DNA from: a virus | Virus record (IMG/VR): IMGVR_UViG_3300013089_000003 | Coordinates: 1-28,271 of that record | Direction: 5' to 3' (one strand) | DNA length: 28,271 bases | Shown: piece after piece, positions 5,375 to 22,561 of the stretch | How the letters are laid out: every line of letters starts with the position of its first letter | Position numbering within the stretch: position 1 is the stretch's first letter | Made by a program: the position numbers and the translations under genes | Notes under the pieces: model-generated | What the model saw: the letters and a program-made list of their open reading frames with translations, nothing else | Database searches by the model: none | Told to the model about the DNA's origin: nothing

Positions 5375-5702
5375 TCCTCGTACAACTCGGGAAGAGGCGA
5401 ACCGCAAGGCGGAGCTCGCGGCGGCGCAACGTCGCGCCGATGTGCGCGAGGTGATGGGGTTGCCCTCCGGCCGGCGGCTGATCTGGGATTGGTTGAGCGA
5501 TGCGGGCCTGTTTCGGGCCTGTTTCACAGGCAGCTCGCAGACCTTCTACAACGAGGGCCGGCGGGAATTCGGGTTGAGAATGTTCCAGCAGATCCTGGAG
5601 GCGTGCCCGGATCTGTATGCACAGGCAGTGCAGGAATTACGCGCACGCGAAAACGATCATGCGGAGACTGACGATGGCAGACAGCGCACAAGCTCACACT
5701 GA
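5367..5702 (+). CDS. Bbp19-like head-module protein, 111 aa
   Basis: The 111-residue product matches my recollection of the phage Bbp19 family, named from Bordetella phage BPP-1. The signature is SGRRLIWDWLSDAGLFRACF followed by a T-G-S-S-x-T-F-Y-N-E-G-R-R block and FGLRMFQQILEACPD (residues about 34-82). The protein is mostly helical. Its exact role in the virion is not established to my knowledge. It is always found between portal and capsid genes, so a part in head assembly or the connector is likely. It starts at GTG 5367, with GGAGG just upstream inside the portal gene, and overlaps the portal stop by 8 nt. It also overlaps the next gene by 29 nt. Confidence 0.75.
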   Translation: MPDPRTTREEANRKAELAAAQRRADVREVMGLPSGRRLIWDWLSDAGLFRACFTGSSQTFYNEGRREFGLRMFQQILEACPDLYAQAVQELRARENDHAETDDGRQRTSSH

Positions 5703-6423
5703 CGCTGCGTCTGGCGAATCGTCCATCCTCGGCGCTGCGGACGGGGCCGGCGTGAAGCCGGAGACCGGTGCGGACTCGAAGGGCGGCGAGAGCAGCATCC
5801 TCGGCGGGGCCGGGGAAGACGCCAAGCCCGACGGGAAACCCGAGGATAAGGGCAACGAGGACCAAGGCGGAGACAAGGACAAGGCGAAGGCCGAAGGCGA
5901 AGAGAAGGACAAGGACGGCGAGGGTAAACCCAAGGACGGCGAGGACAAGCCCAAGGGCGCACCCGAAGCGTACGAACCCTTCACGATGCCCGAGGGCCTT
6001 GAGCTGGACTCCGCGGCGGTGGACCTGGTTGCCCCCGTGCTGAAGGAACTGGACCTGCCGCAGGAATCGGCGCAGAAGCTGGTGGACGCGTACGTGAAGT
6101 TGCAAGCGCAGCAGGCGCAGGCGGCCGAAGAGGCGCTGGCCGAGCAACGCAAGACCTGGGCGGGCGAGTTCCGCAAGACGAAGGGATGGCAGGAAGAGGC
6201 GGGCTACGCAAGGCGGGCGCTCGACACCTTTGGTGACGATGCCTCCAAGCAGATGTTTGCAGACTCCTGGTTGGGTGACCACCCTGCGGTGCTCTCGTTC
6301 CTGGCGCGGATCGGCAAGTCTGTCTCCGAGGACCGGGGACCTGGCGCGGGTAAGGGACCCACGGGCACGGTAGTGGACCGGGCGGCGTCCTTCTACCCAT
6401 CGATGGCGCGGAAGGGCGGCTGA
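5674..6423 (+). CDS. Scaffold-like capsid assembly protein
   Basis: The 249-residue product precedes the major capsid gene, the usual place for a scaffold. The N-terminal half (about 25-105) is a low-complexity Asp, Glu, Lys and Gly-rich region with alternating charges. The C-terminal half is helical: FTMPEGLELD at about 109-118, then a long Gln/Ala-rich coiled-coil-like helix around LVDAYVKLQAQQAQAAEEAL. It ends with a small basic tail, YPSMARKGG. A motif, GESSILG, appears twice about 24 residues apart near the N-terminus. Charged flexible scaffolds are normally expelled or degraded during capsid maturation. ATG 5674 is chosen for GGAG at 5663-5666. The frame is open upstream to 5617. Confidence 0.8.
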   Translation: MADSAQAHTDAASGESSILGAADGAGVKPETGADSKGGESSILGGAGEDAKPDGKPEDKGNEDQGGDKDKAKAEGEEKDKDGEGKPKDGEDKPKGAPEAYEPFTMPEGLELDSAAVDLVAPVLKELDLPQESAQKLVDAYVKLQAQQAQAAEEALAEQRKTWAGEFRKTKGWQEEAGYARRALDTFGDDASKQMFADSWLGDHPAVLSFLARIGKSVSEDRGPGAGKGPTGTVVDRAASFYPSMARKGG

Positions 6424-6424
6424 T

Positions 6425-6440
6425 GCCGTCCGGCGACGGC
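6425..6440 (+). other. Short GC hairpin before the major capsid gene
   Basis: GCCGTC pairs perfectly with GACGGC around a CGGC loop, starting 2 nt after the scaffold stop. No U-run follows. It may protect or separate the capsid message. The capsid ribosome binding site AAAGGAG (6476-6482) lies downstream and is free. Confidence 0.4.
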
Positions 6441-6490
6441 GCCTGTGACTGTGACAAGACACACTGTGCAACCGTAAAGGAGATGCACAC

Positions 6491-7504
6491 ATGGCTACTC
6501 TGGGAACCTCCACCGTCACGATGCTGGATTTCAAACGGCGTCTTGACGAGAACGACAAGATCGCCGGACTCATCGAGCTGCTCGCCGAGAGCAACGAGAT
6601 GATTCAGGACATGGTGTGGCTCGAAGGCAACCTGCCCACGGGCCACAAGACCACGATCCGGACCGGGCTTCCGACTCCCACGTGGCGGCTGCTGAACTAC
6701 GGGGTTCAGCCCACCAAGGGGACCACGGCGCAGGTGACGGACGCCTGCGGCATGCTTGAGGCTTACGCCGAGGTCGACAAGGACCTCGCGGACCTCAACG
6801 GCAATGCGCCGGCGTGGCGCCTGTCCGAGGATGCGGCCCACATCGAGGGGATGAACCAGTCCTTCCTCGACACGCTGATCTACGGGGACACCACGGTGAA
6901 CCCCGAGCGGTTCGTCGGGCTGAATCCGCGCTTTGCCACGCCGTCCGCCACGACCACGAACAGCGGGTACAACATGATTACCGGCGCGGGCTCGGACTCG
7001 GACAATACGAGCATCTGGCTCGTGGTCTGGGGTCCCAACACGGTCCATGGGATCTACCCCAAGGGCTCGCAGATGGGCCTCAAAATGGAGGACAAGGGCC
7101 AGGTCACTCTCACCGATGCGGCCGGCGGGCGTTACGAGGGCTACCGCACCCACTACCAGTGGAAGTGCGGGCTCTGCGTGCGCGACTGGCGGTACGTCGT
7201 GCGCATGTGCAATATCGACGTGTCGGCGCTGGTGGCTGAGTCCAGCGACGCGGACTTGGTGAAGGGCATGGTCAAGATGCTTGAGCGCTTGCCCTCCGAG
7301 ACCGTGGGCACCCCGGCGTTCTACGTGAACCGGACTGTGCAGACGATGCTGCGCATCCAGGCCCTGCAGAAGAGCGGCTACACCACCACGTTCGATGACG
7401 TGGCCGGGAAGCCGGTGTTGCGCTTCCAGGGCATTCCGGTACGGCGCTGCGATGCGATCATCACGGCCGAGGCCACGGTCGCCGGGACGTTTGGCACTCC
7501 GTGA
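6491..7504 (+). CDS. Major capsid protein (BPP-1 Bbp17-like, HK97-type)
   Basis: The 337-residue product builds the capsid shell. It closely follows the BPP-1-type major capsid pattern as I know it. A helical start has LIELLAESNEMIQDMVWLEG (residues 27-46). Next is LPTGHKTTIRTGLP (48-61), TWRLLNYGVQPTKG (64-77) and ACGMLEAYAEVDKDLADLNG (about 85-104), then a PERFVGLNPRF block (about 138-148). BPP-1's capsid protein has a rearranged HK97-like fold by cryo-EM, and this protein probably shares it. AAAGGAG at 6476-6482 gives strong initiation, as expected for the most abundant virion protein. A 10-bp hairpin follows the stop, and the cement gene lies next. Confidence 0.93.
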   Translation: MATLGTSTVTMLDFKRRLDENDKIAGLIELLAESNEMIQDMVWLEGNLPTGHKTTIRTGLPTPTWRLLNYGVQPTKGTTAQVTDACGMLEAYAEVDKDLADLNGNAPAWRLSEDAAHIEGMNQSFLDTLIYGDTTVNPERFVGLNPRFATPSATTTNSGYNMITGAGSDSDNTSIWLVVWGPNTVHGIYPKGSQMGLKMEDKGQVTLTDAAGGRYEGYRTHYQWKCGLCVRDWRYVVRMCNIDVSALVAESSDADLVKGMVKMLERLPSETVGTPAFYVNRTVQTMLRIQALQKSGYTTTFDDVAGKPVLRFQGIPVRRCDAIITAEATVAGTFGTP

Positions 7505-7515
7505 GCATGACCTGG

Positions 7516-7544
7516 GGGCTCCGGGGCTTTGAATCCCGGGGCCC
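7516..7544 (+). other. Strong hairpin after the capsid gene
   Basis: GGGCTCCGGG (7516-7525) pairs with CCCGGGGCCC (7535-7544), giving 10 bp with one G-U and a 9-nt loop. It begins 12 nt after the capsid stop. There is no U-tract, so an attenuator, RNase barrier or processing site is more likely than full termination, because the cement gene follows. A smaller hairpin, CATCG/CGATG, lies at 7559-7572. Confidence 0.5.
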
Positions 7545-7600
7545 TGCCGGCTCATCATCATCGAGGACGATGCGAGAACCAAGAGACGCAATCCCGAATC

Positions 7601-7606
7601 AAGGAG
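7601..7606 (+). promoter_or_regulatory. Shine-Dalgarno that decides the cement protein start
   Basis: AAGGAG lies 11 nt before ATG 7618, with a second AAGGG at 7609-7613. This supports 7618 over the in-frame GTG at 7501, which overlaps the capsid stop and would add 39 residues unlike the family. Confidence 0.6.
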
Positions 7607-7617
7607 ATAAGGGAACC

Positions 7618-8034
7618 ATGTACATCGACAAGTGCCTCCAACTCAGCTCCGAGCAAGCTGAGACCACGGTGGCTGCGCACGCCTCCACCAATGTCATCGA
7701 CATGGTGGTGGCCGGGCGCAGCTTCCCCGAGCTGTACATCGTGATCGATGTGCACACCGCATGCACCTCCGCCGGCTCCGCGACGGTGGCTTTCACCGTC
7801 CAGCACGACTCCGCCGAAGCCTTCGACACTGCTCAGACGCTGGCCTCCGTTGGCGCCACCGCCATTGCCACGCTGGTGGCCGGATACAACGTGCTCACGG
7901 TGCGCATCCCCAAGGGCTGCCTGCGCTATGTGCGGGTGCTCTACACCATCGGCACCGCGGCGTTGACCGCCGGGAAGTTCAACGCGTACCTCGTGGAGAC
8001 CCCGCAGCTGCACAACGTCAACGCGCCGTACTGA
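7618..8034 (+). CDS. Capsid cement (decoration) protein, Bbp16-like
   Basis: The 138-residue beta-rich product resembles the Bbp16 cement protein family of BPP-1, a jelly-roll protein that clamps capsid subunits on the outer surface. Recognised parts are ASTNVIDMVVAG (about 22-33), SAGSATVAFTVQHDS (about 51-65) and IATLVAGYNVLTVRIPKGC (about 83-101). A RYVRVLYTIGTAALTAGKF stretch comes next, so the family pattern runs to the C-terminus. Its place directly after the capsid gene is the expected one, and its separate strong ribosome binding site fits near-stoichiometric expression. The start is set by AAGGAG at 7601-7606. Confidence 0.88.
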   Translation: MYIDKCLQLSSEQAETTVAAHASTNVIDMVVAGRSFPELYIVIDVHTACTSAGSATVAFTVQHDSAEAFDTAQTLASVGATAIATLVAGYNVLTVRIPKGCLRYVRVLYTIGTAALTAGKFNAYLVETPQLHNVNAPY

Positions 8035-8043
8035 TCCAGGCAC

Positions 8044-8118
8044 GTTGAGCAATAGCTCAACCCCCCAGAAGCGGGGCCGGTGCGCCGTTTGCCTTTGAGT
8101 GGGGCGGCGTGCCGGCCC
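8044..8118 (+). other. Two hairpins between cement gene and next small gene
   Basis: The first is GTTGAGC (8044-8050) pairing with GCTCAAC (8055-8061) around an AATA loop. The second pairs 8074-8087 with 8105-8118 as 7 bp plus 5 bp separated by a 2-nt internal loop, with a 17-nt apical loop. Neither is followed by a U-tract. They fill most of the 111-nt gap and may stabilise the capsid and cement message or damp readthrough. Confidence 0.45.
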
Positions 8119-8145
8119 ATCTGGAGCCGAGCGAGGAGAAAGACG

Positions 8146-8328
8146 ATGCCAGAGTTTGTGTGCGAGCGCAAATGTCAGTTTCAGGGGCGGATCTGGGAGC
8201 CTGGTCAAAAGCTGGTCACGAGTCCGGGAGACCCGCAACCGCCACGTCATTTCGTGACGGTCAAGCAGAAGGAGCGCGGGTTTGTGGTCCGGGCCAAGGA
8301 GGCGATGGGCAAGGCCCTGAAAGGCTAG
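8146..8328 (+). CDS. Small hypothetical protein, 60 aa
   Basis: The 60-residue product starts MPEFVCERKCQFQGRIWEPG and ends in a basic helix with KEAMGKALKG. The first half has the look of a small beta barrel, with strands around a CERKCQF and RIWEPG turn. Short proteins of this form, roughly a ribbon plus basic tail, sit between capsid and tail adaptor genes in some phages. I cannot assign a function. ATG 8146 has GAGGAG just upstream (about 8131-8136), and an upstream in-frame ATG at 8080 falls in the hairpin region. The tail adaptor gene starts 3 nt after its stop. Confidence 0.6.
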   Translation: MPEFVCERKCQFQGRIWEPGQKLVTSPGDPQPPRHFVTVKQKERGFVVRAKEAMGKALKG

Positions 8329-8331
8329 ACC

Positions 8332-8901
8332 ATGGCGGCGACCATCCTCGAAATCTGCAATCAGGCGCTGTTGTACCTGGGGGCTCAGCCCATTACTGAG
8401 CTCAACGACACGGGGACGCCTAACCGGTACTGCAATGCGCTGTACGCACAGTGCCGGAAGGAGCTGCTTCAGCGTCATCCCTGGGGGTTCGCGATTCAGG
8501 AGGCGGAGCTGGTTGAACAGAGCGACGATGCAGAAGATACGACGTGGGGGTATGGCTTTGATCTACCTGAGGACTACCTGCGGGCGCTGCTGATCAACGG
8601 CGACAGGACGGCAGAATTCCAGGTGCGTGGCGGGTACCTCTGGTGTGACAGTGACGAGGTGACGCTGCGCTACATCTTCGATGAGGACACCGTGACGGTG
8701 TTTCCGCCTCTGTTCGTGGCGGCGTACGCATACCTGATTGCCTCCAGGATCGCGCTGCCGATTACCGGGGACGCGAAGATTGTGCAGACTGTGACCATGC
8801 TGGCGGTGCAGGCCTTCCACGAGGCTGCCACCGCTGACGCCAACAGCGAGCAACAGCCGCAGACCGCCTCCACACGCCATATAGCCGATTCCCGACAGTA
8901 G
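8332..8901 (+). CDS. Head-tail adaptor (T7 gp11-like tail tubular protein A)
   Basis: The 189-residue product matches the gp11-type adaptor that joins the portal ring to the tail nozzle. It opens with ILEICNQALLYLGAQPI, a family hallmark helix, then NRYCNALYAQCRKELLQRHP with WGFA (residues about 31-54). The core continues with GYGFDLPEDYLRALLING and strands ending in YIFDEDTVTVFPPLFVAAYA (about 116-135). The last 30 residues form a Gln/Thr-rich tail. The protein sits between the head module and the 922-residue nozzle gene, as in T7-like phages. The nozzle's ribosome binding site overlaps its stop codon. Confidence 0.85.
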   Translation: MAATILEICNQALLYLGAQPITELNDTGTPNRYCNALYAQCRKELLQRHPWGFAIQEAELVEQSDDAEDTTWGYGFDLPEDYLRALLINGDRTAEFQVRGGYLWCDSDEVTLRYIFDEDTVTVFPPLFVAAYAYLIASRIALPITGDAKIVQTVTMLAVQAFHEAATADANSEQQPQTASTRHIADSRQ

Positions 8902-8916
8902 GAGGACAGCACTCAG

Positions 8917-11685
8917 GTGCCCGCATTTCCCAACAGGCCATCGTTCGCGGCCGGGGAGCTGGACCCCGCGTTTCACGGTCGGGTTGACTTCGCGAAGTAC
9001 CACTCCGGCTGCAAGACGCTAAGCAACTTCATCGTGCATCCCCAGGGGGGAGTGAGCCGGCGGCAGGGAACAGCCTACATCGGGGAGGCAATGGGCGACG
9101 GGCGCCTGATCCCGTTCCAGTTCTCCACCGAACAGACCTACATGCTGGTGTTTACCGATGCCGAGATGCAGGTGCTGAAGGACGGTGGGTTCATCGCGAA
9201 TTGTGTCGACCTGGTGGACGCGGATCGGTGGCTGTGGGAAGAGTCTACCGGGAAGGCGGGATACTACTACATGACCGAGCCCGAGGGCGGCGCCCCTCCG
9301 GGGATCACCACCACGCCGTACACGGTTTATGACGCTGCGGGGAACAACATCAATAAAGACTGGGGGGACTATGACACCCTCGGTTTCTTCACCTTGTACA
9401 TCGAGGCTGCCACCGATCCGGGTGACGAAGTGTTCGGCTACTACTACGGCTACTGGGCGGACGCGCCCCACAACAACAATCTGACGATCTCGAGCCCCTT
9501 CGCGCTTGCGGACCTCGCACAGTTGCGGTGTACGCAGTCGGCCGACACGATGTTCTTCGCGCATCCCTCCTACCCTCCCTACAAGCTGGAACGGTACAGT
9601 CACTACACCTGGCGGTTTACCCCGGTTGACTTTACCCCATCGATGCTGGCCCCGGATGGGCTCACGGCCACGTACAGCGAGACTCCGGGTGCGACCACGC
9701 GCACGATGATCTATGCGGTATCGGCCATCGACGGAGACGGCAACGAGAGCCTGATGTCCGAGCAGATTTCCGCGACGGTGGATAGCCCGTGGGCGAGCGG
9801 GGCCATGGTCGACCTGGCGTGGAACGAGGCCCCTGGGGCGGTGCAGTACAGCGTGTGGAAGAACAGCCGGGGGGCTTGGGGACTGATCGGCACCACCTCG
9901 GTGGAGGGCTCCACGGGTCTGGCAAAGGGCACGGAGATCAGCGGCGGGGATTATGCCGCGCACGCGAAGGAGAAGGCGTTTGACGGGGACGCGGATACAG
10001 ATTGGCGGTCCACGCAGACTGACAGCAGCGTGAGTGGGGCGGCCTACATCGGTTTGGACATGGGCGCCGGCGGTGACATCGAGCTGAAGACGTTCCGGAT
10101 TCTCCAACGGGATGACTTTGGAATCTCCTCGGTGAAGCTGCAATACTCCGCCAATGGCGTGGACTGGTCGGACCTGGAGACCTTCACCCTTACCGAGGAT
10201 CTTGGAACGTGGGAAAGCTGCCAGGTCAGCGTCGATCTGGTGTCGGCGCGCTACTGGCGGCTGCTGGCTAATGCCAACAACAGCAACGGCAAGCGCTGGT
10301 CTGTGTGGGAACTGGAGCTGTACTACCGCAACTATGGTAAGGCTTTCGTCGATGACAACGTGAATCCGGATACCACGGTAGGCCCTATCGAGCTCTCGGA
10401 CCCGTTCAACGGGGAGGATGCGTATCCGGGGTCGGTGGCCCTGTTTGAACAGCGGTTGTGGTACGCCTCCAGTAACGACCGGCCTTCCACGGTCTGGGCC
10501 TCGCGTACGGGGATCTTCCATAGCTTTGCGGTCTCCACGCCGCTGCGAGCGGATGACGGGATCGAGGCTACCCTGGCAAGTCGGCTGGCGGATCAGATCC
10601 GGCACATGATCCCGCTGCGGGAAATGATGGTGCTGACCGCGGGCAGCGAGTGGCGCCTGGGGCCCGGCGGCAATACGGACGCGGTTACGCCTACCTCGAT
10701 CATGCTGACTCCGCAATCCTATGTGGGATGCGCGCACCTGGCTCCGCTGGTGATCGGCAACACGGTGCTGTATGTGGGGCGAAACGGGCGTCAGGTCCGG
10801 GACATGTATTTCGACATGGTAGCCGATGGCTACATGGGAAACAACCTGTCCATTCTCGCCGCGCATCTGTTCAGTGGGGCGGCCAGCAATGCGCTCCTTG
10901 ACTGGTGTTATGCGCGGTACCCGGACAGCCTGGTGTGGTGCGCCAAGGCCGATGGTACGCTGGTGGCGCTCTCCTACCTGCGGGAACACGACGTCTGGGC
11001 CTGGCATCGGCATAGCCTGGCGGCCGGCGGAGAGACCGCGGAGGCCAGAGCCGTCGCGGCGCTGCCGGATGACGGGGACGGCGCCGATCCGGTGTACATG
11101 CTGGTCAAGCGGGTGCTCCCGGACGACAGCACGGTGTACTACGTCGAGGCGATGCTTGCGGAGTACTCCGACGATGTGTTCCTCGACTGCGCGATTCTCT
11201 ACACGATGCCTGCGGCCGGCACATCGGCGACCGGGCTGGATTGGATGGAGGGGTTTGCGGTAACCGTCGCCCACAGCAACGGGACGGTGGACACCGGCAA
11301 GACCGTGACGAGCGGTACGGTCACCTGGACGGAAGAGGAAAAAAGCTGGGTGGTGATAGGGCTGCCGTACACCTCCACGCTGGAAACGCTGAATATCGAG
11401 TTCGACGCGGGCGGCACGGCCCAGGGGCGGCGCAAGAAGGTGCACAGTGCAACGGTCCGGGTGCTGAATTCGCAGTATCTGGAGGTGGGTCCGGAAACGG
11501 GCAACACCACGCCGCACCAAGAGGCGGCTACCGAGGAATGGGGAAACGGGGGCGGGTTCACGGGTGATATCTCGATCATCATTCCGCCGGGGTGGAATTC
11601 GCACGGACGGCTGGTGATTACCTCGGCCAAGCCTTGGCCGCTCACGGTCCTGGAAATCGTACCGAAGGTGAGCCTTGGCGAGTAG
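8917..11685 (+). CDS. Tail nozzle (T7 gp12-like) with inserted discoidin-like domain
   Basis: The 922-residue product is the beta-propeller-type nozzle of a short tail. It starts at GTG 8917 after GGAGG (8901-8905). Residues 1-65 are classic for the family: FAAGELDPAFHGRVDFAKYH, then C-K-T-L-x-N-F and GGVSRRQGT, followed by a QFSTEQTYMLVFTD strand. The stretch 246-335 resembles a fibronectin type III-like unit (YAVSAIDGDGNES, DLAWNEAPGAVQYSVWK). Residues about 343-472 match the F5/8 type C (discoidin) pattern: KAFDGDADTDWRS, YIGLDMG, SVKLQYSANGVDWSDL and ARYWRLLANAN, ending in WSVWELELYY. Nozzle sequence then resumes with PGSVALFEQRLWYASS (about 505-520). The inserts probably project outward and bind glycans. 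Confidence 0.9.
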   Translation: MPAFPNRPSFAAGELDPAFHGRVDFAKYHSGCKTLSNFIVHPQGGVSRRQGTAYIGEAMGDGRLIPFQFSTEQTYMLVFTDAEMQVLKDGGFIANCVDLVDADRWLWEESTGKAGYYYMTEPEGGAPPGITTTPYTVYDAAGNNINKDWGDYDTLGFFTLYIEAATDPGDEVFGYYYGYWADAPHNNNLTISSPFALADLAQLRCTQSADTMFFAHPSYPPYKLERYSHYTWRFTPVDFTPSMLAPDGLTATYSETPGATTRTMIYAVSAIDGDGNESLMSEQISATVDSPWASGAMVDLAWNEAPGAVQYSVWKNSRGAWGLIGTTSVEGSTGLAKGTEISGGDYAAHAKEKAFDGDADTDWRSTQTDSSVSGAAYIGLDMGAGGDIELKTFRILQRDDFGISSVKLQYSANGVDWSDLETFTLTEDLGTWESCQVSVDLVSARYWRLLANANNSNGKRWSVWELELYYRNYGKAFVDDNVNPDTTVGPIELSDPFNGEDAYPGSVALFEQRLWYASSNDRPSTVWASRTGIFHSFAVSTPLRADDGIEATLASRLADQIRHMIPLREMMVLTAGSEWRLGPGGNTDAVTPTSIMLTPQSYVGCAHLAPLVIGNTVLYVGRNGRQVRDMYFDMVADGYMGNNLSILAAHLFSGAASNALLDWCYARYPDSLVWCAKADGTLVALSYLREHDVWAWHRHSLAAGGETAEARAVAALPDDGDGADPVYMLVKRVLPDDSTVYYVEAMLAEYSDDVFLDCAILYTMPAAGTSATGLDWMEGFAVTVAHSNGTVDTGKTVTSGTVTWTEEEKSWVVIGLPYTSTLETLNIEFDAGGTAQGRRKKVHSATVRVLNSQYLEVGPETGNTTPHQEAATEEWGNGGGFTGDISIIIPPGWNSHGRLVITSAKPWPLTVLEIVPKVSLGE

Positions 11686-12178
11686 GAAGACAATCCGCAT
11701 TGTGCCGGCGACCCGCGAACATTGCGCGGATATAGCCGCGCGCATGCGTGCAGAGGACCGGGCGGAGCTGTACGCGGGCTGTGGGCTGAATGCGTTCGAC
11801 GGGTTGGTGGAGAGCTGGCGGGTCAGCGAGCAGTATCGGCGCACGGTGCTGGTCGCCCGGCGGCCGGAGGCCATGTTCGGGGTCTCGCTCGGCACGGTGC
11901 TTTCGGGACTTGGGATCGTGTGGCTGCTGGGAACTGAGGATTTTCCGAAGCTGTGCCGCCGGGAGCTGCTCACGGTTCCCCCGCGCATCCTGCTGGAGAT
12001 GTCAAGGATCTGCCCGCATCTGGGCAACGTAGTGGATGCCAGACAACGGCGTTCCATCGCCTGGCTCAAGCGTATCGGGGCGCAGGTGACGGAGCACACT
12101 GTCGCGGTGGGGCCGTTCTGGATGCCGTTCCACCAGTTCACGATCACGAATGGAGATAGACCATGTGCGACCCCGTGA
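11675..12178 (+). CDS. GNAT-like internal virion protein (T7 gp13 / DUF2833 type)
   Basis: The 167-residue product has the pattern of phage GNAT-fold proteins found beside tail nozzle genes. It starts IRIVPATREHCADIAARMR with E-D-R-A-E-L (about 6-32). The middle reads PEAMFGVSLGTVLSGLG, then VWLLGTEDF (about 64-90). The C-terminal part has NVVDARQRRSIAWLKRIG (about 118-135) and ends near GPFWMPFHQF. T7 gp13 and relatives (DUF2833) have the same position and size, and act in virion assembly or ejection. Whether it binds acetyl-CoA is not clear: no certain R/Q-x-x-G-x-G/A loop is present. It begins at TTG 11675, after AAGGTGA, and overlaps the nozzle stop by 11 nt. Confidence 0.75.
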   Translation: MASRKTIRIVPATREHCADIAARMRAEDRAELYAGCGLNAFDGLVESWRVSEQYRRTVLVARRPEAMFGVSLGTVLSGLGIVWLLGTEDFPKLCRRELLTVPPRILLEMSRICPHLGNVVDARQRRSIAWLKRIGAQVTEHTVAVGPFWMPFHQFTITNGDRPCATP

Positions 12179-12678
12179 CGTTAGGCGTTATCGGTGGGCT
12201 GGCAATTGTCGGGGGGGCAGGTGCCACTATCATGGGAGCCCGGGCGGCAAGCCAGCAGGCAGACTATCAGGCTGATGTCCAGCGGAACAACGCGCTTGCG
12301 GCCGAATTCATGCAGGCGGATGCTGCTCGGCGCGGTGAGATCGAGGCCGACCAGATCAACCGCCGCATTGCCGCGGTGACCGGGATGGGGCGCACGGCCT
12401 ATGCGGCAGGCAATGTGATGCTGAGAAGCGGTTCGCCGGCGTCCTGGGAAGAGGATGTGGCTGTGCTCGGGGCCGAGGACCGGGCAATGAGCCAGTACAA
12501 CACGCAGATGGAGCAATGGGGATTCGGTAGGCAGGCCGATGACTTCCGCACACGCAGTCGGCTGGCGTCCTGGCAATCCGGGCAATCCATGTTTGCCGGC
12601 TACCTGGGAGCGGCTAACAGCATTCTTGGGGGGACAAGCCAACTGGGGATGAGCCTTAGCGCTGGGGGATCCGAATAG
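12163..12678 (+). CDS. Internal virion protein (T7 gp14-like)
   Basis: The 171-residue product starts with a hydrophobic glycine-rich segment, LGVIGGLAIVGGAGATIMGA (residues about 7-26). A long helical, Ala- and Gln-rich region follows: ASQQADYQADVQRNNALAAE and onward. This layout fits the smaller ejected core protein of T7-like phages (gp14), which inserts in the outer membrane of the host during DNA entry. The rest has polar helices around EADQINRRIAAVTG and a Gly/Ser-rich tail. No enzymatic domain is seen. It overlaps the GNAT-like gene by 16 nt and precedes the gp15-like gene, giving the expected gp13-gp14-gp15-gp16 order. Confidence 0.7.
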   Translation: MCDPVTLGVIGGLAIVGGAGATIMGARAASQQADYQADVQRNNALAAEFMQADAARRGEIEADQINRRIAAVTGMGRTAYAAGNVMLRSGSPASWEEDVAVLGAEDRAMSQYNTQMEQWGFGRQADDFRTRSRLASWQSGQSMFAGYLGAANSILGGTSQLGMSLSAGGSE

Positions 12679-12691
12679 GCAGGGAAGTATC

Positions 12692-14398
12692 ATGCCAACG
12701 GTACCGACATATCAGCGGCGGATAGGGCCACGGCCCGCGCCGTTCGTGCCGCAGACATCCGCTCTGCCTCCAGACCCCGTGCCCGGAGCTGCTGCGAATC
12801 TGGCCGGGACGGCGCTGGATGCCACGATCGCGCTGATCAACCGCCGCAAACAGCAGCAGAAGGACCAGGACGTGGCGGCGGCGCAGACCTCGTTCGCGAG
12901 GGCGCAAGAGCGTCTTACTGCCTGGCAGAATGGCCCGATGCGCGAAATGCGGGGGCTGGATAGTCAGGGCGCTCCGGCGGCGGCAGAGGAGCTGCTCGCG
13001 GAGGTGTATGAGGAGACCAAGGCCGGGTTGAGCCCGGAGCAACTCAAGCGCCTGGATGGGTTTTGGGGCCAGTTGCGGGTGGGCGTGGTCGGGAATGTCA
13101 CGCGCCACGTGACGGCCGAAACGCAGCGGGCCAGGGAGGCGGGGCAAGATGCGGTGATCGCAGCCGGGATCGAGAGCGCGGCAAGCACCACGGGATTCGC
13201 GGACGTGGACGGCGAGATTCGGGCGATGGAGGGGGTCTATGCGGCCATCGCGGACAAGTACCGTCCGTACGGGCAGGATGTCGTCGACGCGGAGGTCAAG
13301 GACGCGGTGGGCCGCATGACGGCGCGAAAGCTGAGCCTGGCCCTGGACGGGATCAGTAGCGCTAAGGACGCGGCAGAGGTCGAACAGCGCAAGAGTGATC
13401 TTGCCACGGTGCTGGACAACCACGCGGAGACGCTCGGGGCTGATGTGGTATCTCAGTATCGGGAACGGGGGGAGAAGTTTGGCGCGGCCAAGCTTGGGCA
13501 CTTGACTTCCCTGCGCCGCTCTGCGCGGTCCGACGCGGTGTCGGGGCTCAAGATTGATGCGTTACGCGCCATGGTGGCGGACGATGGGTCGATCCTCTCG
13601 GTGATGACTACGGGCCAGGAGTTGCAGGGGGAGTTCCAGGGCAAGGACCCAGACATCGCCTTGGATGTGCAGCGCGTGCTTACCCAGCTCGATGGGGTGT
13701 TGACCAGTCGGTGGGAAGAGCAGGAAGTAGCCGCCAAACGGGCGGACCTCGCAGAAGCCAAAATGGCCGAGCAAGCCCGCAAGGAATGGGAAGACGAAGC
13801 CAAAGCATCCCTGGGGGTGCTTGAAGCCAGGGTGCGCGGCGGCAGAACCCCGCCAGACGTGGCGGTCAATGACCTCATGAGCGCCATGGGGAGGGGCGAT
13901 TGGCCGGATACGAGGGATGTGTGCCTGGCGATCGAGAAGACCCTGACGGCTATCACCACGTATGGGAGTACCGAGCAGAAAGACCAGGCGGCGGCGTGGG
14001 GGGTTATCGCGGACATGGAGGCGGCGAACGCCTTCGGGTCCAGGATCATCGTGAAGAGCAAGTTAGGGGGGATAAACGACAGGACCGAGGCGGAGCTGCT
14101 TGAAGCGAGGGAGAAAGCACGCGGGGCGATGAAAGGGATTTGGGGATTCCGCAAGCCCGATGAGGATGCCCGCGCGAGGGCGCTCGCCGAGATCAATGAG
14201 GACGTGGCACGCAGTCAGACCTTGCGCATGAGGGTATACGAGGCAGCCAGGCTCTATCTCAAGGACCAGAAGGAGAAGGGCAAGCCCATTAGCGTGCCCG
14301 ACTTCGTGGAGCACATCAACAGGTTTCTCGCGTTGCCCAGACAGCAGCAGGCCTATCGCGAATCCATCCAGGGCGGGCTGGACAACAGGGACCGTTAA
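12692..14398 (+). CDS. Internal virion protein (T7 gp15-like), helical
   Basis: The 568-residue product has no recognised enzymatic domain. It starts with a proline-rich stretch (PTVPTYQRRIGPRPAPF), then is almost entirely predicted helix with many Ala, Glu, Lys and Arg residues. One clear example is EEQEVAAKRADLAEAKMAEQ near residue 345. Position and composition match the middle ejection protein of T7-like phages (gp15), which forms a tube with gp16 across the periplasm. This is inferred from order and composition, not from a specific motif. AGGGAAG at 12681-12687 precedes the ATG. The giant gene follows 9 nt after its stop. Confidence 0.65.
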   Translation: MPTVPTYQRRIGPRPAPFVPQTSALPPDPVPGAAANLAGTALDATIALINRRKQQQKDQDVAAAQTSFARAQERLTAWQNGPMREMRGLDSQGAPAAAEELLAEVYEETKAGLSPEQLKRLDGFWGQLRVGVVGNVTRHVTAETQRAREAGQDAVIAAGIESAASTTGFADVDGEIRAMEGVYAAIADKYRPYGQDVVDAEVKDAVGRMTARKLSLALDGISSAKDAAEVEQRKSDLATVLDNHAETLGADVVSQYRERGEKFGAAKLGHLTSLRRSARSDAVSGLKIDALRAMVADDGSILSVMTTGQELQGEFQGKDPDIALDVQRVLTQLDGVLTSRWEEQEVAAKRADLAEAKMAEQARKEWEDEAKASLGVLEARVRGGRTPPDVAVNDLMSAMGRGDWPDTRDVCLAIEKTLTAITTYGSTEQKDQAAAWGVIADMEAANAFGSRIIVKSKLGGINDRTEAELLEAREKARGAMKGIWGFRKPDEDARARALAEINEDVARSQTLRMRVYEAARLYLKDQKEKGKPISVPDFVEHINRFLALPRQQQAYRESIQGGLDNRDR

Positions 14399-14407
14399 GG
14401 CAATTCA

Positions 14408-17400
14408 GTGGACCCCGAACGCATAGACTATGAACTGAATCGCTTCCTGAATGGGGTGTATCGGGACTCCGAGCAGGAAGCGCTTCGCCTGGCCGACAAT
14501 GGGGATGCATGGAAGCAACAGCACGCGGTCCGCCTCTTCCTGACCAGCCGCTACGGTCGGGAAATCTCCGAGGATGAGTACGAACCCTTCCGCAATGCGT
14601 TCTTCGGGGAGGACTCTACCGACGCGGACGCCTATGACCACGTGTTCAGCTTCTATTCGGATGCGCGGCCGGGGGCGCTGAGGGAGGCGGACAAGATCCC
14701 GGATGCTGCGCCACGCACGGCGCGGAGCACGACGTTCAATGGGAAGGGCAGTGTGGCGGCTCGGGCGCTTACTGGCGGGCTGGGGTGGCCCATCCTGGAC
14801 CTGGTGGGCGCCACCGATGCGATTGACAGGGGGCTGGCGCGGCAGATTGGCAAGGTGGGGCCTGAGGACATTCAGGGCATGCGGGAATTCTCCGCCAAGC
14901 TCGGGGCCCCCGTTGCGCAGATATCTCTTGAGGCTCCGCGGTGGAGCGACACGCGGCCGGCTGAGCTGGCAAAGCGCATGATGGCCTTTGTGAACCAGTC
15001 GGTCTACAGCATGCCTATCCGCCTCCTCGATCACGCCAAGATGATGCGTAGCTCCGAAGCGCTGGCGAACGTGTTCGTTGAGGATCTCAAGCAATTCAAC
15101 ATCGGTCCGGAAACACAGGCGTCCCTGGAGGAGAGTTCCGGGAGCTTCGTGCGGAACCTCTCCAATCCGGACTGGTGGGCCGTGAACGGTGGCCAGGCGT
15201 TGGGCAACGCGGCGGTGTTCGGGCTTGGCGCAACGCTCGGATTCGCGGCCACGGGGGGACTGGCGCAGCGTGAGGGACTTCGCCATATGGTCGTGGGGGC
15301 CCTCCAGGGAGCTGGGGAGAGCGAGTTCGAGGCCGGTGTCTTCACCATGGACGTGGTGCGCCACAAGAAAGAGATTGCGCAACGCCTGTCCTGGTTCGAG
15401 AAATCGCTCGCGAACCGTACCGAAGAGCAGCGCCTGGCAGCCTACGGGTCCGGCGCCTACACGGCGCTCAACGCCTACCGTGATGAGATGCGGCGGCTGA
15501 ATGACCCGTTCTTGGCCGGGCAGTACGCATCGGGTGTGTTCTATCGGAACTTGGCCCTGAACAGTGTGCTTGGGGCCATGTCCATGGGGACCGGTGGTGC
15601 GGCGGCAAAACGCTTTCTGGCCGGGAAGTTTGGCGCGGTAGCGACAGCGCTGGGGCTCAGTGCGGTCTCCGCAACCGGGGAAATAGAACAGGAGCTATTC
15701 CAGAATGAATTCAGCGGTCAGGCAATGGCTGCCTACGTGGCGGACACGGCCGTGGCGTGCAACTGGATTCCCGGGAAAACCCTGATGGCTCTGGTTGGCG
15801 ACGATAAGGAAGCCCGAGACACGGTGATGGCGACCATGCTCACGTGCACCAAGAGCACGGTGGTAAGCACCGCGCACCAGTGGGCGGAGTGCCGGACGTT
15901 GGCCGACCAGGAAACGTTTGTGCGCGAGAAGCGCAGAGCGCTCGGAGCACTGGCCGCTCAAGGCGACCGCCACGCCGCGGCAATGCTGAGCGCGCTTGGT
16001 CCAGAGCGCACGGGTATGCAGGCGCTCCGTGAATTCGATGGGAAGGTGAGAGGGCTTGTCAGCAAGGTGATCAGTCGCACGCATCGGGCCATGGAGTCCG
16101 CCACGCCTGAGGAAGCCGCCAGAATGGACCCGGATGCGTTCGTTGCTGAGGAGGTGTTTGCCGAAGCCGATGAGGCGATGGGCCAGGCCCAGGAAGACCT
16201 GGAGGCGCTCCGGGATGCTGAGGGCAGGCCCGAGGATGCGGAGTCCGCGGAGGTGCAGGACACGCAACAATCCTCCCCAGATGTTGCGGAAACCGCAACG
16301 GACGAAGAGACGCCGCCGGCGGAGTCCGCAACTCCGGTACGTCCTCCCACACCGGAAGCGGCGCCGGCGGCGGAGTCTGCAGGGGTTGATCCGCGGATCG
16401 CGTCGGCGCAACGGCTGGCTGAGGTGCTGGCAGAGAAAAACCCCGATGCGGCAGCGGTCCGCGTGATCTTGGACGCGGAGGTCCCGGCATTGGTCCGGGA
16501 GCGGAATCAATCAGGGAGGGTGATCCAGGGGTACAGGGATGGCGCTACGGGCGAACTGGTAGTGGTCGCCGACAATGTTCCGGATGGGGACCTCCCCGGG
16601 TACATCCTCTACGTCTGGGCCCACGAGCACGGCCACGAGGGGTTGGACATCATCTTTGCCGGGGACTCGGTGAAGCGCGATGCGTTCCTGTTGGCCATTC
16701 AACGGTCTCTGGACCCGCAGGAGCTGGCGACGTTCTACAGCAAGACCGGGATGAGTCCGCAAGAAATCGCCGCAATGCCGGAGAAGGCCGACGCGATTGC
16801 GGTGGGGGAGTATCTGGCGGACTTGGCTGGGAAGGTGGGGCGGGATGGTGCGAAAGCTCTCAACCCCAAGCAAGCTGGGATCTGGGAGCGGGTGCTCGAT
16901 GAGGTCCGGGCGTGGGTCCGGTCGTTGGCGCGTCGGCTTGGGTATGCCCCGCGGCTGACGGCGGCTGACATCGAGGGGGTTGCGGTGGCAATGTCAGGGG
17001 CGGCCGGGGTGCGCACCACGGATGTGGGCCGGGCGGCCATGGAGAGCACGGTCCCCGAGGGTGCTCCGGCGGCGGCCGCGGACGAAGCGAAAGGGACGGA
17101 GGCTCCGGACCCGGACTGGATTGCGAAGGCGCAGGCCGAACGCAAGGCGATGAGGGAGGCGCAGGAACAACACCCGCGCATGGTCGATGAAAAGGATGTG
17201 CGCAAGGAGTTGGCGCGTGACGAGATAGTGAAGCTGTACCTCGGACCCGAGGAGCGGCGGGAACTGAAGAATGCCGGCGTAACCTGGGTGCCATACTGGT
17301 TCACGACGGACCGCACGCGCGGTATGAGCTTCGACCAAGCGGCGCAATACCTCCATGACAATTACCCGGAGTTCCACATATCCGAGACCGCCGGTCCGGC

Positions 17401-20400
17401 GGAAGTGGCGCTGTTCTTCCAGGGGAAGGTAACGCAGCGGGTACAGGCGGAGGCGCCCATGCCGCTCACGGCCTTGGAGCTCAACCCGGGCGACTCAATA
17501 GAGCATGCCGACGGGCGCGTGGAGATTGTGATTGGCAAGCCAGCGGAGGGCGGAGCAACCACGGTCGATAGCGAATGGGTACGCGACTATGGCATGGACG
17601 ATACCATTACCGGACAGGTAGGCCGGGCGTCGCCCGAGGAATTGCAGGCGGCACAGGAGAGGGCGGCGGAACTGCCCATCGAGGAGCCCGCTGAAGAGCG
17701 CTGGGCGTCGGATGATACCTCGTTCAGTCTGGGCGGGTATGACCAGGCTGAGAGCGCGGCGTGGAAAGAGCAGCTCGGGAATGTCGCCAAGGGCGGGCCG
17801 AAGAGTCGCGAGGTGCTGCGCTTCGGCAAGACTCCGGCGCTGTTGCTGATGTCCGGTGCCGATCCCTTGCCTATGGTCATGCGCCCTGGACTAGTGCGCA
17901 AGGCAACTTCCGGCAAGGTGCACAATGTACCGATGGCAGTCATCGAGGATCTGCACCGGTACATGGCGGATCCGATGCTGATCACCGATTCTCTCAGCAC
18001 GGAGAACGCGTTGATGGTGGTATTCGACGTGACTGTGGGCACGGCCCCGGTGATGGCCGCGGTACACCTCAACAGCAAGGAGGATCAACACGAGGTCAAT
18101 CGGATAGCCAGTGTCTACGAACGTCGGTCGGTCGATGCTTTGATCGACGCGGTAAGGGATGGACACGCGCACTACGTCAACCTGGAAAAGTTTCGCGCCT
18201 GGGTCCGATCAGCCGGGCTACAATTGCCCGGGGAAGGACTCAGGCGCGACAAGAGAAAGATACTGCACGAAACGGACTTCGGCAAGCCGGTCAGCTTCAG
18301 CGTGGGGGGTCCGGAGCAACTGAGCCTGTTCGCGGATGCGGTCAGCGAGAAGGCGGTACGGCAGAAGGCTCGGAGCATTCTCGATGCGAAGGAATCCTAC
18401 AAGAGTCCCAAGGGCCGGGCTGAGGTGGCCTGGAACCACGTGCGCAATACCGCGGCCAAGGTGCTGAAGGATCTCGACGGGGGAGGCAAGGACTATGGCG
18501 GCGGGATGATGGCGATCCAGGCCGCGGAGACCGTTGCGGCCAAGGAGATCGTGCGCCAGCGTCTGGAGGATGCCCCGAAGCAGGGCGCGGAACAACTGGA
18601 TCTCTTCCGCAGCGATCCGCACGAACGGGGGATGCTCTTCAGCCTCGGCGAGGAGGCGCTTGAGCCCTTGTTCCGCGATGCGGTGGAGGCGCTCCAGGGA
18701 CTGGAAGAGACCCCGGCGCCGGAACGGACAACACGCAGGTTCAAGACCCGTGAGGAAAGCCAGAGGGAAGCTCAGCGCAAGAAACCGATACGCGATCTGG
18801 CTGCGAAGATGCTGCGCGGTGCGTCCGTGCGCGACGCGCTGGTAGCGAATGCACAGCGGTTCTATGAGCTGATTGACCGGGGACCGCGGGATACGCTGGT
18901 GTACGAGCATGAGGGCCAGCCGCATGCCTACCCGAGGCGGCAGACCCTGGCGGAGTACGGGCGCGAGATCGAGCACGAAACCGGGATGGTCGGGGAGGCG
19001 GATGTCCTCCGGGCCCTGGAAGCGATCGACCACTATGACGCCGGCGGAACGCTGGGAAGCATGGAGGCGTTTGCGGCGGGAGAGGATATCAGGAAGGGCA
19101 CGGCGCTACTGCCGCGGCAAGGTGCAAAGTCCGCGGGGGATGAGGGGCGCGCGATCGAGTTCAGCCTGGGGGATGCGCCGAAGCTGGGTAGCCGGGAGAT
19201 GAGTTTGGCGCTGGCGACAGCTGCACGCTACACGCGGGGCCAGAAGGTCAGTGAACGGGTGGTGGCCGGGAGATTGGCGGAGTTGGGGTTGCGGCGGGAT
19301 CAGGCTGGGGCGGTGATGGCCGAGGCTCGCCGAATGGCCGCGAAGCTGGAAAGCGAGCGGATGGCGCCGGCGCGGGATGAGGAGCTGTTGCGGGCGCTGG
19401 CTACCCCGGTGCTGCGGGAACGGTTCACCGCGGATGTGGCGACGGCGGCAAAGACGGGCATGGAGCAAGAGGCGCGCTTCAATCGGGTGTTCCGCTCGAT
19501 CGAGATCTGGAATACCCGGCGCGCTGAACAGATGGCTGCCAAGCGTCGGGGGCTGACGGATGCGGAGCTCGCACGCGGTGGGATGGAGAATCTGCCCTCC
19601 CGCCTGAAGGCGGCGATTGACGAGTATGAGCCGCCGGCCAAGGCGGTGGATGACGAGGAGCCTCCCGTCGAGGTGCCCGCGGATTTCGTGGAGACCGAGG
19701 AGGAAAGCCGGGGTAAGGAAGGCCCGCCAGGGGTCGGGGATGCCTTCGACGCAGCCAGGCGTGACGCGGAGGACCTGGCGGCGGAGGCTAAGGCGCTGAT
19801 GCCTCTGCCGGCGGAGTTGCCTACCGACCCGGTTGACATCGCCGACCTGAAACAGGTGATCGTTGGCCAGGCGGTGCGCAAGCTGACCGACGAAGGGTAC
19901 GTGATTGACAAGAACGCAGACCGCGATCCGGTGCTGCGGCGTGAGGTGGGAGCAACCTGGGCGCGGCTGCTGCGAAAGGCGGCCTGGGAACACGTGCCGG
20001 CCGGGGGCCGGAAAGAGTGGCTTAGAGAAGCGTGCCGGGAATTGGAGCTTGCCCCTGGAACGATCCCCGCAATCAACAAGCGGGTGAGTCACCTTGCCTG
20101 GGCGCTGAATCGGTACGCGACGAAGGCCGACGCCGCGCGCTTCGCCAAAGAGATCGAGCGGCTGCGCAAGCTCAAGGTACTGAAGGGGAGGACCTCCACG
20201 CGCGAGGAGCTGATTCAGCGGGATTTCGAGCCCCGCATGAAGGCCTGGCTTCGGCTGGTGTTCGATATCTATGGGGTGTCGGAACAGTCTGCTGACGAGA
20301 TGTCAGAGAGCCTTCAGAACCTCCAGGAACAGGTAGTTCTCGGTAACGTGAGTGAGGACCAGGCACGCACTACGCTCGCGCGCATGATCGAGAGCATCGG

Positions 20401-22561
20401 TAAGGAGCCGACCTGGGCCTCCCAGCCGGTGGCCCACATCATCGACGATGCCCTGCGGGCGTTGAACCTCTACGGGGCGGTGGTGCACCGAAGCCCGGCG
20501 GAGATAGCCGGGGCAATCGTAACGCTGCGCCAGGACTACAAGGAGGGGCTGTGGAAGATCACCGAGGCGCGCAACAAACGCGAGGAGGTGTGGGGCCCCC
20601 GGCGCGAGGCGATCCAGGAGGCGCTACGGGCGTTGCCGGAAGCGGACCGCGAGACGCTATCGGGCAAGATCGGGGAGTTTCTCCAAGGGAACTACGATTT
20701 CTACAACGGCATGATGGACATGATCCGCCATGCCAAGGGAGAGGTCTACGCAAAAGCGGCCGCCGCGATCAAGGAGATTTCCCTTGAGATCAACGAAGCG
20801 AACAGTAACAAGGCCCGCCTCGTTGAACCGGGTATCACGGAACTTCAGGCGGCGGTAGGCCGGATCTACAAGACCGAGGACGTTGAGCGCACGTTGCGGG
20901 AGTTGATGGAAACCAAGCGCGAGTACCGACGCTTCAGCCGGCGCGCCGAGCGCCACGGGGATCTGAGCCGCGCCAACCTGCTGATGATCCTGGCGGCCAC
21001 CGACCAGGAGGACTACAAGGAGAACCTCGCGGGAAAGGGGCGCGATGACGAGTACCTGGCCGAGCTGCGTTCCGTGCTCTCCCCTGCTGACCTTGAGTTC
21101 CTGGATTGGTTGCGGGGGGCCTACAAAGAGAACCGCCAGGCGATGAGCGAGTTCAGCGAACGCACGCTCGGAGTGCCGGTGCTGGAAGAAGACGCGCTGT
21201 ACCACCCGTTCGTTGCCGACCGCGAGCGAATGCCTTTGGCGGAGATGCACTTCATTCCCCGGCCCGTCCCCCCGGAGATGTCTAGCAGGCGCAAGCATTC
21301 GTGGGACATTGACGAACGGGCCGACGTGGTGAGCACCTTCTTCCGCTACAACGAGAACCGGGCGCAGTTCATGGCGAACCTGGAGGTCGCCCAGAATCTG
21401 CGCTACGTGTTCGGACACCCGGACATGGCCAGGGTGATGGCGGAATTCGCGGGGGCAGGCAATGCGGCGCGCGTGGCCCGGCATGTCGGGGAGATCATGG
21501 GCGGGAGGGTGATGAGAGTGCCCATGCAGGGAGAGGCCCTGATCAGCATGTTGCGCGGTACCGCGACCTTGGCGGTGATGAGCTGGAACATCGGCTCTGG
21601 CCTGAGGCAGCTTTCCGGAGCGCCTGCGTTCGGGTTCGCGGTGGGTGTGCCGGAGATGGCGCGGGCCATAGGCAGGGAGCTTGCGGACTCGGCGCGCTGG
21701 CTGGCGACCTGGAAGGCGATGCTTGCGGACCCCGCATTCCGCGAATGGGCCAACTACGGTTTCGGTGAACCGGTGCACAACGCTATGGCCAAGGTCTCCA
21801 GAAACCCGTTGATACGATTTGCGCGCTTCGGGATGTTCCCCACGCGCATCGGAATCATGGCCGCGGTGGCCACGGTGGCTCCCGGGATCTACATGGGCAT
21901 ACACGATGCCCGGCAGAGAGAGGGCTATACGGACGCGGAGAGTAAGCGCCTGGCCATGCGGGAAGTGATGTGGCTGATCCACCACACCCAGGGCTCGAGC
22001 CAGGTTGCCACGCTGAACCAGTGGTACCGTGGGCCGGAGATCGGGAAGCTTGGGCTCCAGTTTCTCGGGCCTATGTCTCAGCAATCCGGATGGGTGCAGC
22101 GCGCGTTTCGGGAACTGGCCGCCGGCACGCCTGGAAGCAGACGCCAGGCAGCCAACGCGCTTGCGGTTGGGTTTGTGCTGGTGCCTGTGGTGTACCAGAT
22201 GTTCAAGGTAATCTGGGAGATGGGGAGGGGGGATTGGTTTGATGACCCGGAGGAAGAGGCCAAAGAGGCGGCATGGGAGCTGTTCGCAATGGTGCTGGTT
22301 GGCCCAATGGCCGGAAGTGTGGTCTTCGGGAGCATTCTGGAAGCAACAATCAATTCGCTTGTAATGGGGAAATTTGGGGACGTCGAGCCCCCTGCGATGG
22401 AGAAGGCAGTGGACTGGAGCGAGTCCGCCTTCAAGCTCGCTGGGCATCTGGCTACGCTGAACCTGGAAGAGGCATGGAAGGACGCGGACAGGTTCATGAA
22501 GGGCTTCCCGGTGTACCGCGAACCGCGTCGTGTCATCGAGAACTATCTGGAAGAGGACTGA
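14408..22561 (+). CDS. Giant polyvalent ejection protein (zincin-like, MuF-C-like), 2717 aa
   Basis: This protein occupies the gp16 position but is about twice the length of T7 gp16 (about 1318 residues). Residues 256-285 and 381-435 are Gly/Ala-rich hydrophobic segments. A low-complexity linker with repeated A-E-S-A follows at about 611-660. Residues 663-890 include AHEHGHEGLD, a zincin HExxH motif at 739-743, with E801 a candidate third ligand. Residues about 1106-1290 match the MuF-C pattern (LRFGKTPALLLMSGA, NALMVVFDVTVG). F-S-(L/V)-G occurs at 1106, 1297, 1411 and 1585. QLSLF (1304-1308) and QLDLF (1396-1400) are perfect clamp-binding pentapeptides. Long helical segments span about 1700-2150, and the C-terminus has hydrophobic stretches (about 2375-2418, 2480-2500, 2583-2653). 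No lysozyme or transglycosylase motif is seen. It begins at GTG 14408 after AAGG (14397-14400). Confidence 0.85.
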   Translation: MDPERIDYELNRFLNGVYRDSEQEALRLADNGDAWKQQHAVRLFLTSRYGREISEDEYEPFRNAFFGEDSTDADAYDHVFSFYSDARPGALREADKIPDAAPRTARSTTFNGKGSVAARALTGGLGWPILDLVGATDAIDRGLARQIGKVGPEDIQGMREFSAKLGAPVAQISLEAPRWSDTRPAELAKRMMAFVNQSVYSMPIRLLDHAKMMRSSEALANVFVEDLKQFNIGPETQASLEESSGSFVRNLSNPDWWAVNGGQALGNAAVFGLGATLGFAATGGLAQREGLRHMVVGALQGAGESEFEAGVFTMDVVRHKKEIAQRLSWFEKSLANRTEEQRLAAYGSGAYTALNAYRDEMRRLNDPFLAGQYASGVFYRNLALNSVLGAMSMGTGGAAAKRFLAGKFGAVATALGLSAVSATGEIEQELFQNEFSGQAMAAYVADTAVACNWIPGKTLMALVGDDKEARDTVMATMLTCTKSTVVSTAHQWAECRTLADQETFVREKRRALGALAAQGDRHAAAMLSALGPERTGMQALREFDGKVRGLVSKVISRTHRAMESATPEEAARMDPDAFVAEEVFAEADEAMGQAQEDLEALRDAEGRPEDAESAEVQDTQQSSPDVAETATDEETPPAESATPVRPPTPEAAPAAESAGVDPRIASAQRLAEVLAEKNPDAAAVRVILDAEVPALVRERNQSGRVIQGYRDGATGELVVVADNVPDGDLPGYILYVWAHEHGHEGLDIIFAGDSVKRDAFLLAIQRSLDPQELATFYSKTGMSPQEIAAMPEKADAIAVGEYLADLAGKVGRDGAKALNPKQAGIWERVLDEVRAWVRSLARRLGYAPRLTAADIEGVAVAMSGAAGVRTTDVGRAAMESTVPEGAPAAAADEAKGTEAPDPDWIAKAQAERKAMREAQEQHPRMVDEKDVRKELARDEIVKLYLGPEERRELKNAGVTWVPYWFTTDRTRGMSFDQAAQYLHDNYPEFHISETAGPAEVALFFQGKVTQRVQAEAPMPLTALELNPGDSIEHADGRVEIVIGKPAEGGATTVDSEWVRDYGMDDTITGQVGRASPEELQAAQERAAELPIEEPAEERWASDDTSFSLGGYDQAESAAWKEQLGNVAKGGPKSREVLRFGKTPALLLMSGADPLPMVMRPGLVRKATSGKVHNVPMAVIEDLHRYMADPMLITDSLSTENALMVVFDVTVGTAPVMAAVHLNSKEDQHEVNRIASVYERRSVDALIDAVRDGHAHYVNLEKFRAWVRSAGLQLPGEGLRRDKRKILHETDFGKPVSFSVGGPEQLSLFADAVSEKAVRQKARSILDAKESYKSPKGRAEVAWNHVRNTAAKVLKDLDGGGKDYGGGMMAIQAAETVAAKEIVRQRLEDAPKQGAEQLDLFRSDPHERGMLFSLGEEALEPLFRDAVEALQGLEETPAPERTTRRFKTREESQREAQRKKPIRDLAAKMLRGASVRDALVANAQRFYELIDRGPRDTLVYEHEGQPHAYPRRQTLAEYGREIEHETGMVGEADVLRALEAIDHYDAGGTLGSMEAFAAGEDIRKGTALLPRQGAKSAGDEGRAIEFSLGDAPKLGSREMSLALATAARYTRGQKVSERVVAGRLAELGLRRDQAGAVMAEARRMAAKLESERMAPARDEELLRALATPVLRERFTADVATAAKTGMEQEARFNRVFRSIEIWNTRRAEQMAAKRRGLTDAELARGGMENLPSRLKAAIDEYEPPAKAVDDEEPPVEVPADFVETEEESRGKEGPPGVGDAFDAARRDAEDLAAEAKALMPLPAELPTDPVDIADLKQVIVGQAVRKLTDEGYVIDKNADRDPVLRREVGATWARLLRKAAWEHVPAGGRKEWLREACRELELAPGTIPAINKRVSHLAWALNRYATKADAARFAKEIERLRKLKVLKGRTSTREELIQRDFEPRMKAWLRLVFDIYGVSEQSADEMSESLQNLQEQVVLGNVSEDQARTTLARMIESIGKEPTWASQPVAHIIDDALRALNLYGAVVHRSPAEIAGAIVTLRQDYKEGLWKITEARNKREEVWGPRREAIQEALRALPEADRETLSGKIGEFLQGNYDFYNGMMDMIRHAKGEVYAKAAAAIKEISLEINEANSNKARLVEPGITELQAAVGRIYKTEDVERTLRELMETKREYRRFSRRAERHGDLSRANLLMILAATDQEDYKENLAGKGRDDEYLAELRSVLSPADLEFLDWLRGAYKENRQAMSEFSERTLGVPVLEEDALYHPFVADRERMPLAEMHFIPRPVPPEMSSRRKHSWDIDERADVVSTFFRYNENRAQFMANLEVAQNLRYVFGHPDMARVMAEFAGAGNAARVARHVGEIMGGRVMRVPMQGEALISMLRGTATLAVMSWNIGSGLRQLSGAPAFGFAVGVPEMARAIGRELADSARWLATWKAMLADPAFREWANYGFGEPVHNAMAKVSRNPLIRFARFGMFPTRIGIMAAVATVAPGIYMGIHDARQREGYTDAESKRLAMREVMWLIHHTQGSSQVATLNQWYRGPEIGKLGLQFLGPMSQQSGWVQRAFRELAAGTPGSRRQAANALAVGFVLVPVVYQMFKVIWEMGRGDWFDDPEEEAKEAAWELFAMVLVGPMAGSVVFGSILEATINSLVMGKFGDVEPPAMEKAVDWSESAFKLAGHLATLNLEEAWKDADRFMKGFPVYREPRRVIENYLEED

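Follow-up and report, generated by a model that had tools for sequence, protein, structure and literature searches.

The question raised by this locus is whether two pentapeptides, QLSLF and QLDLF, could dock a giant phage protein onto DnaN, the sliding clamp of its bacterial host. The window, which is the whole stretch of DNA analysed, was the viral record IMGVR_UViG_3300013089_000003, with 28,271 bases and 63.6% G+C. The small and large terminase genes were followed by those of the head-tail adaptor, the major head protein, the tail, and then two internal virion proteins, and matches to phrog_51, 38, 332, 212, 394, 376, 308, and 418 were found in the window. The head-tail adaptor (portal) was ~40–45% identical to the portals of Bordetella phage BPP-1, Salmonella phage epsilon15, and similar phages. 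The window is assigned to an epsilon15/BPP-1-like podophage, of which it is a fragment, because of this gene content and portal identity. The features referred to below were as follows, all on the + strand.

11675–12678, +, two internal virion proteins (PHROG matches to phrog_308 and phrog_418), upstream of the giant ORF
14408–22561, +, giant ORF of 2717 aa with a GTG start, a polyvalent-type protein at the ejection-protein position (from the ORF and synteny)
16622–16636, +, HExxH zincin-type motif HEHGH, residues 739–743 (motif only)
17723–17734, +, module tag 1, FSLG at residue 1106, preceding the MuF_C domain (motif)
17912–18196, +, MuF_C domain PF18819, residues 1169–1263 (Pfam, E=4.5e-18), a BECR-type RNase-like domain of polyvalent proteins
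18296–18307, +, module tag 2, FSVG at residue 1297, directly preceding QLSLF (motif)
18317–18331, +, QLSLF, candidate clamp-binding motif 1, residues 1304–1308 (translation)
18347–18571, +, predicted three-helix core between the motifs, residues 1314–1388 (AlphaFold2 single-sequence models)
18593–18607, +, QLDLF, candidate clamp-binding motif 2, residues 1396–1400 (translation)
18638–18649, +, module tag 3, FSLG at residue 1411, ten residues beyond QLDLF (motif)
19160–19171, +, module tag 4, FSLG at residue 1585 (motif)

By synteny, a giant gene was located at the matching place in BPP-1 (bbp10, 2052 aa), Cobetia phage Carin1 (2854 aa), Limnohabitans phage DC33, Vibrio phage PS25B.1, and two Manatee Spring podophages. 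The C-terminus of the window giant showed weak similarity to two of these giants. The 2717-aa protein is probably packaged and ejected into the host, a reading supported by the internal virion proteins encoded upstream and by the gene order shared with BPP-1, Carin1, and others. The name "giant ejection protein", given in the earlier note, was thus a fair inference from the position of the giant gene in an epsilon15-like podophage and its synteny with related phages. A 568-aa ORF without a PHROG match (window 12692–14398) follows the internal virion proteins and precedes the giant ORF, and its position suggests a second ejection-type protein. The DC33 record (PQ492659.1, L049) contained a podophage portal and the giant gene, yet it was filed under Inoviridae, the filamentous phages, apparently through a taxonomy error.

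MuF_C was the sole Pfam domain of the giant protein, and together with phrog_616, whose match was confined to residues 1113–1298, it was all that Pfam and PHROGs returned. No LPD family was matched in the Pfam search. The region around HEHGH gave no Pfam peptidase match in the giant protein; it is possibly a metallopeptidase domain, and such a zincin-type domain could be the processing peptidase of the giant protein. On the basis of MuF_C, the zincin motif, the size, and the gene context, the protein resembles a phage polyvalent protein. As in the polyvalent proteins described by Iyer et al. 2017 (PMC5512222), it is a multidomain product of the late-gene region with MuF_C (PBECR) and a HExxH zincin-type motif; that paper, however, mentions no module that binds the clamp or DnaN. 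The 2789-aa LPD5-type protein of phrog_616, from E. coli podophages such as PhiR5_2, is similar in size and ~33–35% identical over residues 1113–1298, but it resembles the window giant only in the MuF_C region, its tags are YSR, and it contains no QLxLF.

The two pentapeptides were present exactly and at the residues given in the earlier note, and the translation of positions 18317–18607 starts with QLSLF and ends with QLDLF. The 2717-aa protein has no further match to QLxLF or to Qxx[LM]F, and both pentapeptides fit the consensus Q-aliphatic-x-[L/M]-[F/L] (PMC11139829). The candidate clamp-binding peptides are GGPEQLSLFADAV and KQGAEQLDLFRSDP. Composition-preserving shuffles gave an expectation of 0.0027 QL[SD]LF per protein, and two copies were reached in 0 of 3000. 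The probability of two or more copies was ~3.6e-6 on composition, a surprise inflated to an unquantifiable degree by the many motifs and proteins that were probably scanned for the earlier note. At the empirical rate (0 in 241,519 aa), the upper bound was 5.6e-4, which likewise ignores the motifs and proteins scanned. Other open frames from related loci, 241,519 aa in all, contained no QLxLF, against 2.7 expected; the 26 other giant phage proteins (70,379 aa) that form part of this set likewise lacked it. The verdict on the pair was that it is real and non-random. The pentapeptides are encoded by different codons, CAACTGAGCCTGTTC versus CAACTGGATCTCTTC, and these differences, together with the lack of any self-repeat above the shuffle level, ruled out a recent DNA duplication of the pentapeptide.

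The tags FS[LV]G occurred four times in the giant protein, against 0.05 expected, and delimit the MuF_C segment, the pentapeptide-bearing module, and the segment that follows it. The giant is better regarded as a polyvalent protein whose modules are bounded by tags than as the helical, Leu-rich sequence that the earlier note had offered as its alternative. The module (residues 1297–1411) matched no Pfam family, and neither a sequence search nor a fold search gave a match in the PDB. It was modelled with AlphaFold2 in two single-sequence runs, which both gave the three-helix core (residues ~1314–1388); the best of five models was taken in each, the other four being much less confident. The pLDDT of the core was mostly ~80–91, with the exception of one loop. 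QLSLF and QLDLF formed short helical segments outside this confident core with pLDDT ~47–62, values that do not imply accessibility. Burial of the pentapeptides in a folded core, which the earlier note had named as fatal to its idea, was therefore not seen in the confident core, but the segments that carry them were of low confidence and helical. The absence of an extended peptide from these low-confidence segments was counted against clamp docking.

The segment after the tag at residue 1297, FSVGGPEQLSLFADAV, aligned without gaps to the segment after the tag at residue 1411, FSLGEEALEPLFRDAV. The shared pattern was FSxG...LFxDAV, in which the LF of QLSLF was aligned with the LF of the segment at 1411, where Gln is absent. 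Over 14 residues, with the tag excluded, 0.5% of random pairs of sequence windows were at least as similar, or ~3% after six comparisons. The LF of QLSLF may accordingly belong to a post-tag LFxDAV segment or helix, which would be a non-clamp cause for part of the match. If the similarity is real, only the QL of QLSLF still needs another cause; QLDLF is left unexplained by the repeat, because it precedes its tag.

No homologue of the module was detectable in phages, plasmids, IMG/VR, or ~1150 bacterial genomes. Phages and plasmids were searched by tblastn with E values allowed up to 10, IMG/VR by degenerate peptides, and the bacterial genomes in addition. Weak bacterial matches (E ~0.001–0.01) were rejected because such values are expected by chance in a search of 398 genomes; one of them, L031, proved on inspection to be a lipase. 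A further scan of IMG/VR for FS[LV]G close to QLxLF, in either order, by DNA patterns that cover G+C-rich codon choices only, returned 10 loci, mostly non-gene-like frames or short unrelated ORFs, and no polyvalent protein among them. The giant proteins of related phages, including those with MuF_C, contained neither the module nor QLxLF. Queries taken from elsewhere in the giant protein recovered no independent copy, but only the IMG/VR contig IMGVR_UViG_3300022553_000053 (L003/L059), which ends at 16835, before the module. This contig is letter-for-letter equal to window 4408–16835 (12,428 bases) and is the same virus, assembled a second time.

The best explanation of the pair is docking of a module of the ejected polyvalent protein on the host DnaN through both pentapeptides, for which we estimate a chance approaching one half. 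According to PMC11139829, QLxLF is the highest-affinity clamp consensus and QLDLF the strongest peptide, clamp-binding motifs occur in tails or loops, and each clamp dimer offers two binding sites. In the context of Pol III alpha, QLDLF binds with a KD of ~7 nM (PMC12309361). We infer the course of events, from ejection and processing to clamp binding and its effect, as follows. The stretch from FSVG 1297 to FSLG 1411 would form a module of its own within the ejected polyvalent protein: a small domain of three helices, with one high-affinity clamp-binding peptide on each flexible flank. Once ejected, and perhaps cut at the tags by the zincin-type domain of the giant protein itself, the module would engage the peptide pockets of the host DnaN dimer. 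Because the peptides lie ~90 residues apart, one module could fill both pockets of the dimer. The likeliest effect would be that the module competes for the clamp with proteins of host replication and repair, or that it keeps its neighbours, for instance the MuF_C RNase-like domain, close to DNA that has just entered or is replicating. The more specific proposal that the two-peptide module bridges both DnaN pockets, and so captures host replication or repair at DNA entry before the expression of any phage gene, is rather unlikely, but its probability is not negligible.

The idea of the earlier note that an ejected fragment docks on the host clamp was thus upheld in part. The exact, best-consensus motifs outside the core and the ejection position spoke for it, whereas the related giants lack the motif, and the large look-elsewhere effect of the motif scan was also counted against it. 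A structure-helped coincidence is only slightly less probable: the pentapeptides would be parts of short amphipathic helices at module ends near the FS[LV]G tags, and their Gln would be fortuitous. Such a coincidence is consistent with the position of both motifs within ~10 residues of a tag, their modelling as helix, and the FSxG...LFxDAV pattern past the next tag, which lacks Gln (0.5%; ~3% after six comparisons). It is also in line with the many motifs and proteins scanned before the pair was reported and with the failure to find a module homologue, in the phages, plasmids, IMG/VR, and bacterial genomes searched, that could show conservation. Against it stand the composition expectation of 0.0027 and the best known residues at all five positions of both copies, and the repeat after the tags does not account for QLDLF, which stands before one.

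The vicinity of the tags would also suit boundary recognition elements for another partner, for example a protease of maturation or self-processing or the packaging machinery, instead of the clamp. Zincin-type peptidases are predicted to process polyvalent proteins (PMC5512222), the giant protein has a HExxH motif, and related MuF_C giants are enriched for an [FY]S[RKL] tag at linkers. These related giants are nevertheless tagged without QLxLF, so that the pentapeptide is no general component of the tag, and two of the four tags in the window giant have no neighbouring pentapeptide; such a role is improbable. Recruitment of repair or of a replication start to the entering phage DNA, in place of a block of the host, would draw on the same motif evidence as the clamp-docking reading. 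It accords with the use of the clamp-binding motif for targeting by transposases, in which such motifs arose repeatedly (PMC4549789), and with the proposal that polyvalent proteins jump-start replication (PMC5512222). Pfam and PHROGs revealed no replication domain in the giant protein, however, and no replication gene was recognised within the 28,271-base window; recruitment of this kind is highly improbable.

The window giant has the exact QL[SD]LF consensus in common with PolC, Hda, Pol IV, Pol III alpha, and transposases; these are proven binders, and in several the motif is conserved in the family, whereas the window pentapeptides are candidate motifs. Twort Gp168, a clamp inhibitor, is a phage precedent for targeting the host DnaN, although its binding site is the DNA channel rather than the peptide pocket. 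To our knowledge, Gp168 is not a virion-ejected polyvalent protein. If the module does dock on DnaN, a virion protein would be influencing the host replisome from the very moment of infection; such an action by a polyvalent protein is absent from PMC5512222 and from the clamp sources, and the module would be a natural two-site clamp ligand. If it is false, the pair would be an example of a strong consensus match arising beside repeated tags in giant phage proteins.

The [FY]S[RKL] tag between the domains of MuF_C giants has better statistical support than clamp docking. In 13 MuF_C proteins, [FY]SR was observed 24 times against 6.9 expected (analytic expectation) and the reverse RS[FY] twice, although several of these proteins are related and the counts are not independent. 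In 12 giants not known to have MuF_C, collected by synteny or LPD38, [FY]SR was observed 7 times against 7.0 expected. The words "linker" and "short motif" are absent from the polyvalent-protein paper (PMC5512222). The tag loci were L001, L002, L009–L023, L051, and L052, together with window residues 1106, 1297, 1411, and 1585. Most of the [FY]S[RKL] tags were located in linker-like stretches between domains, and the tag is a candidate processing or boundary signal. The variant tended to be uniform within one protein, being YSR in PhiR5_2 and FS[LV]G in the window giant.
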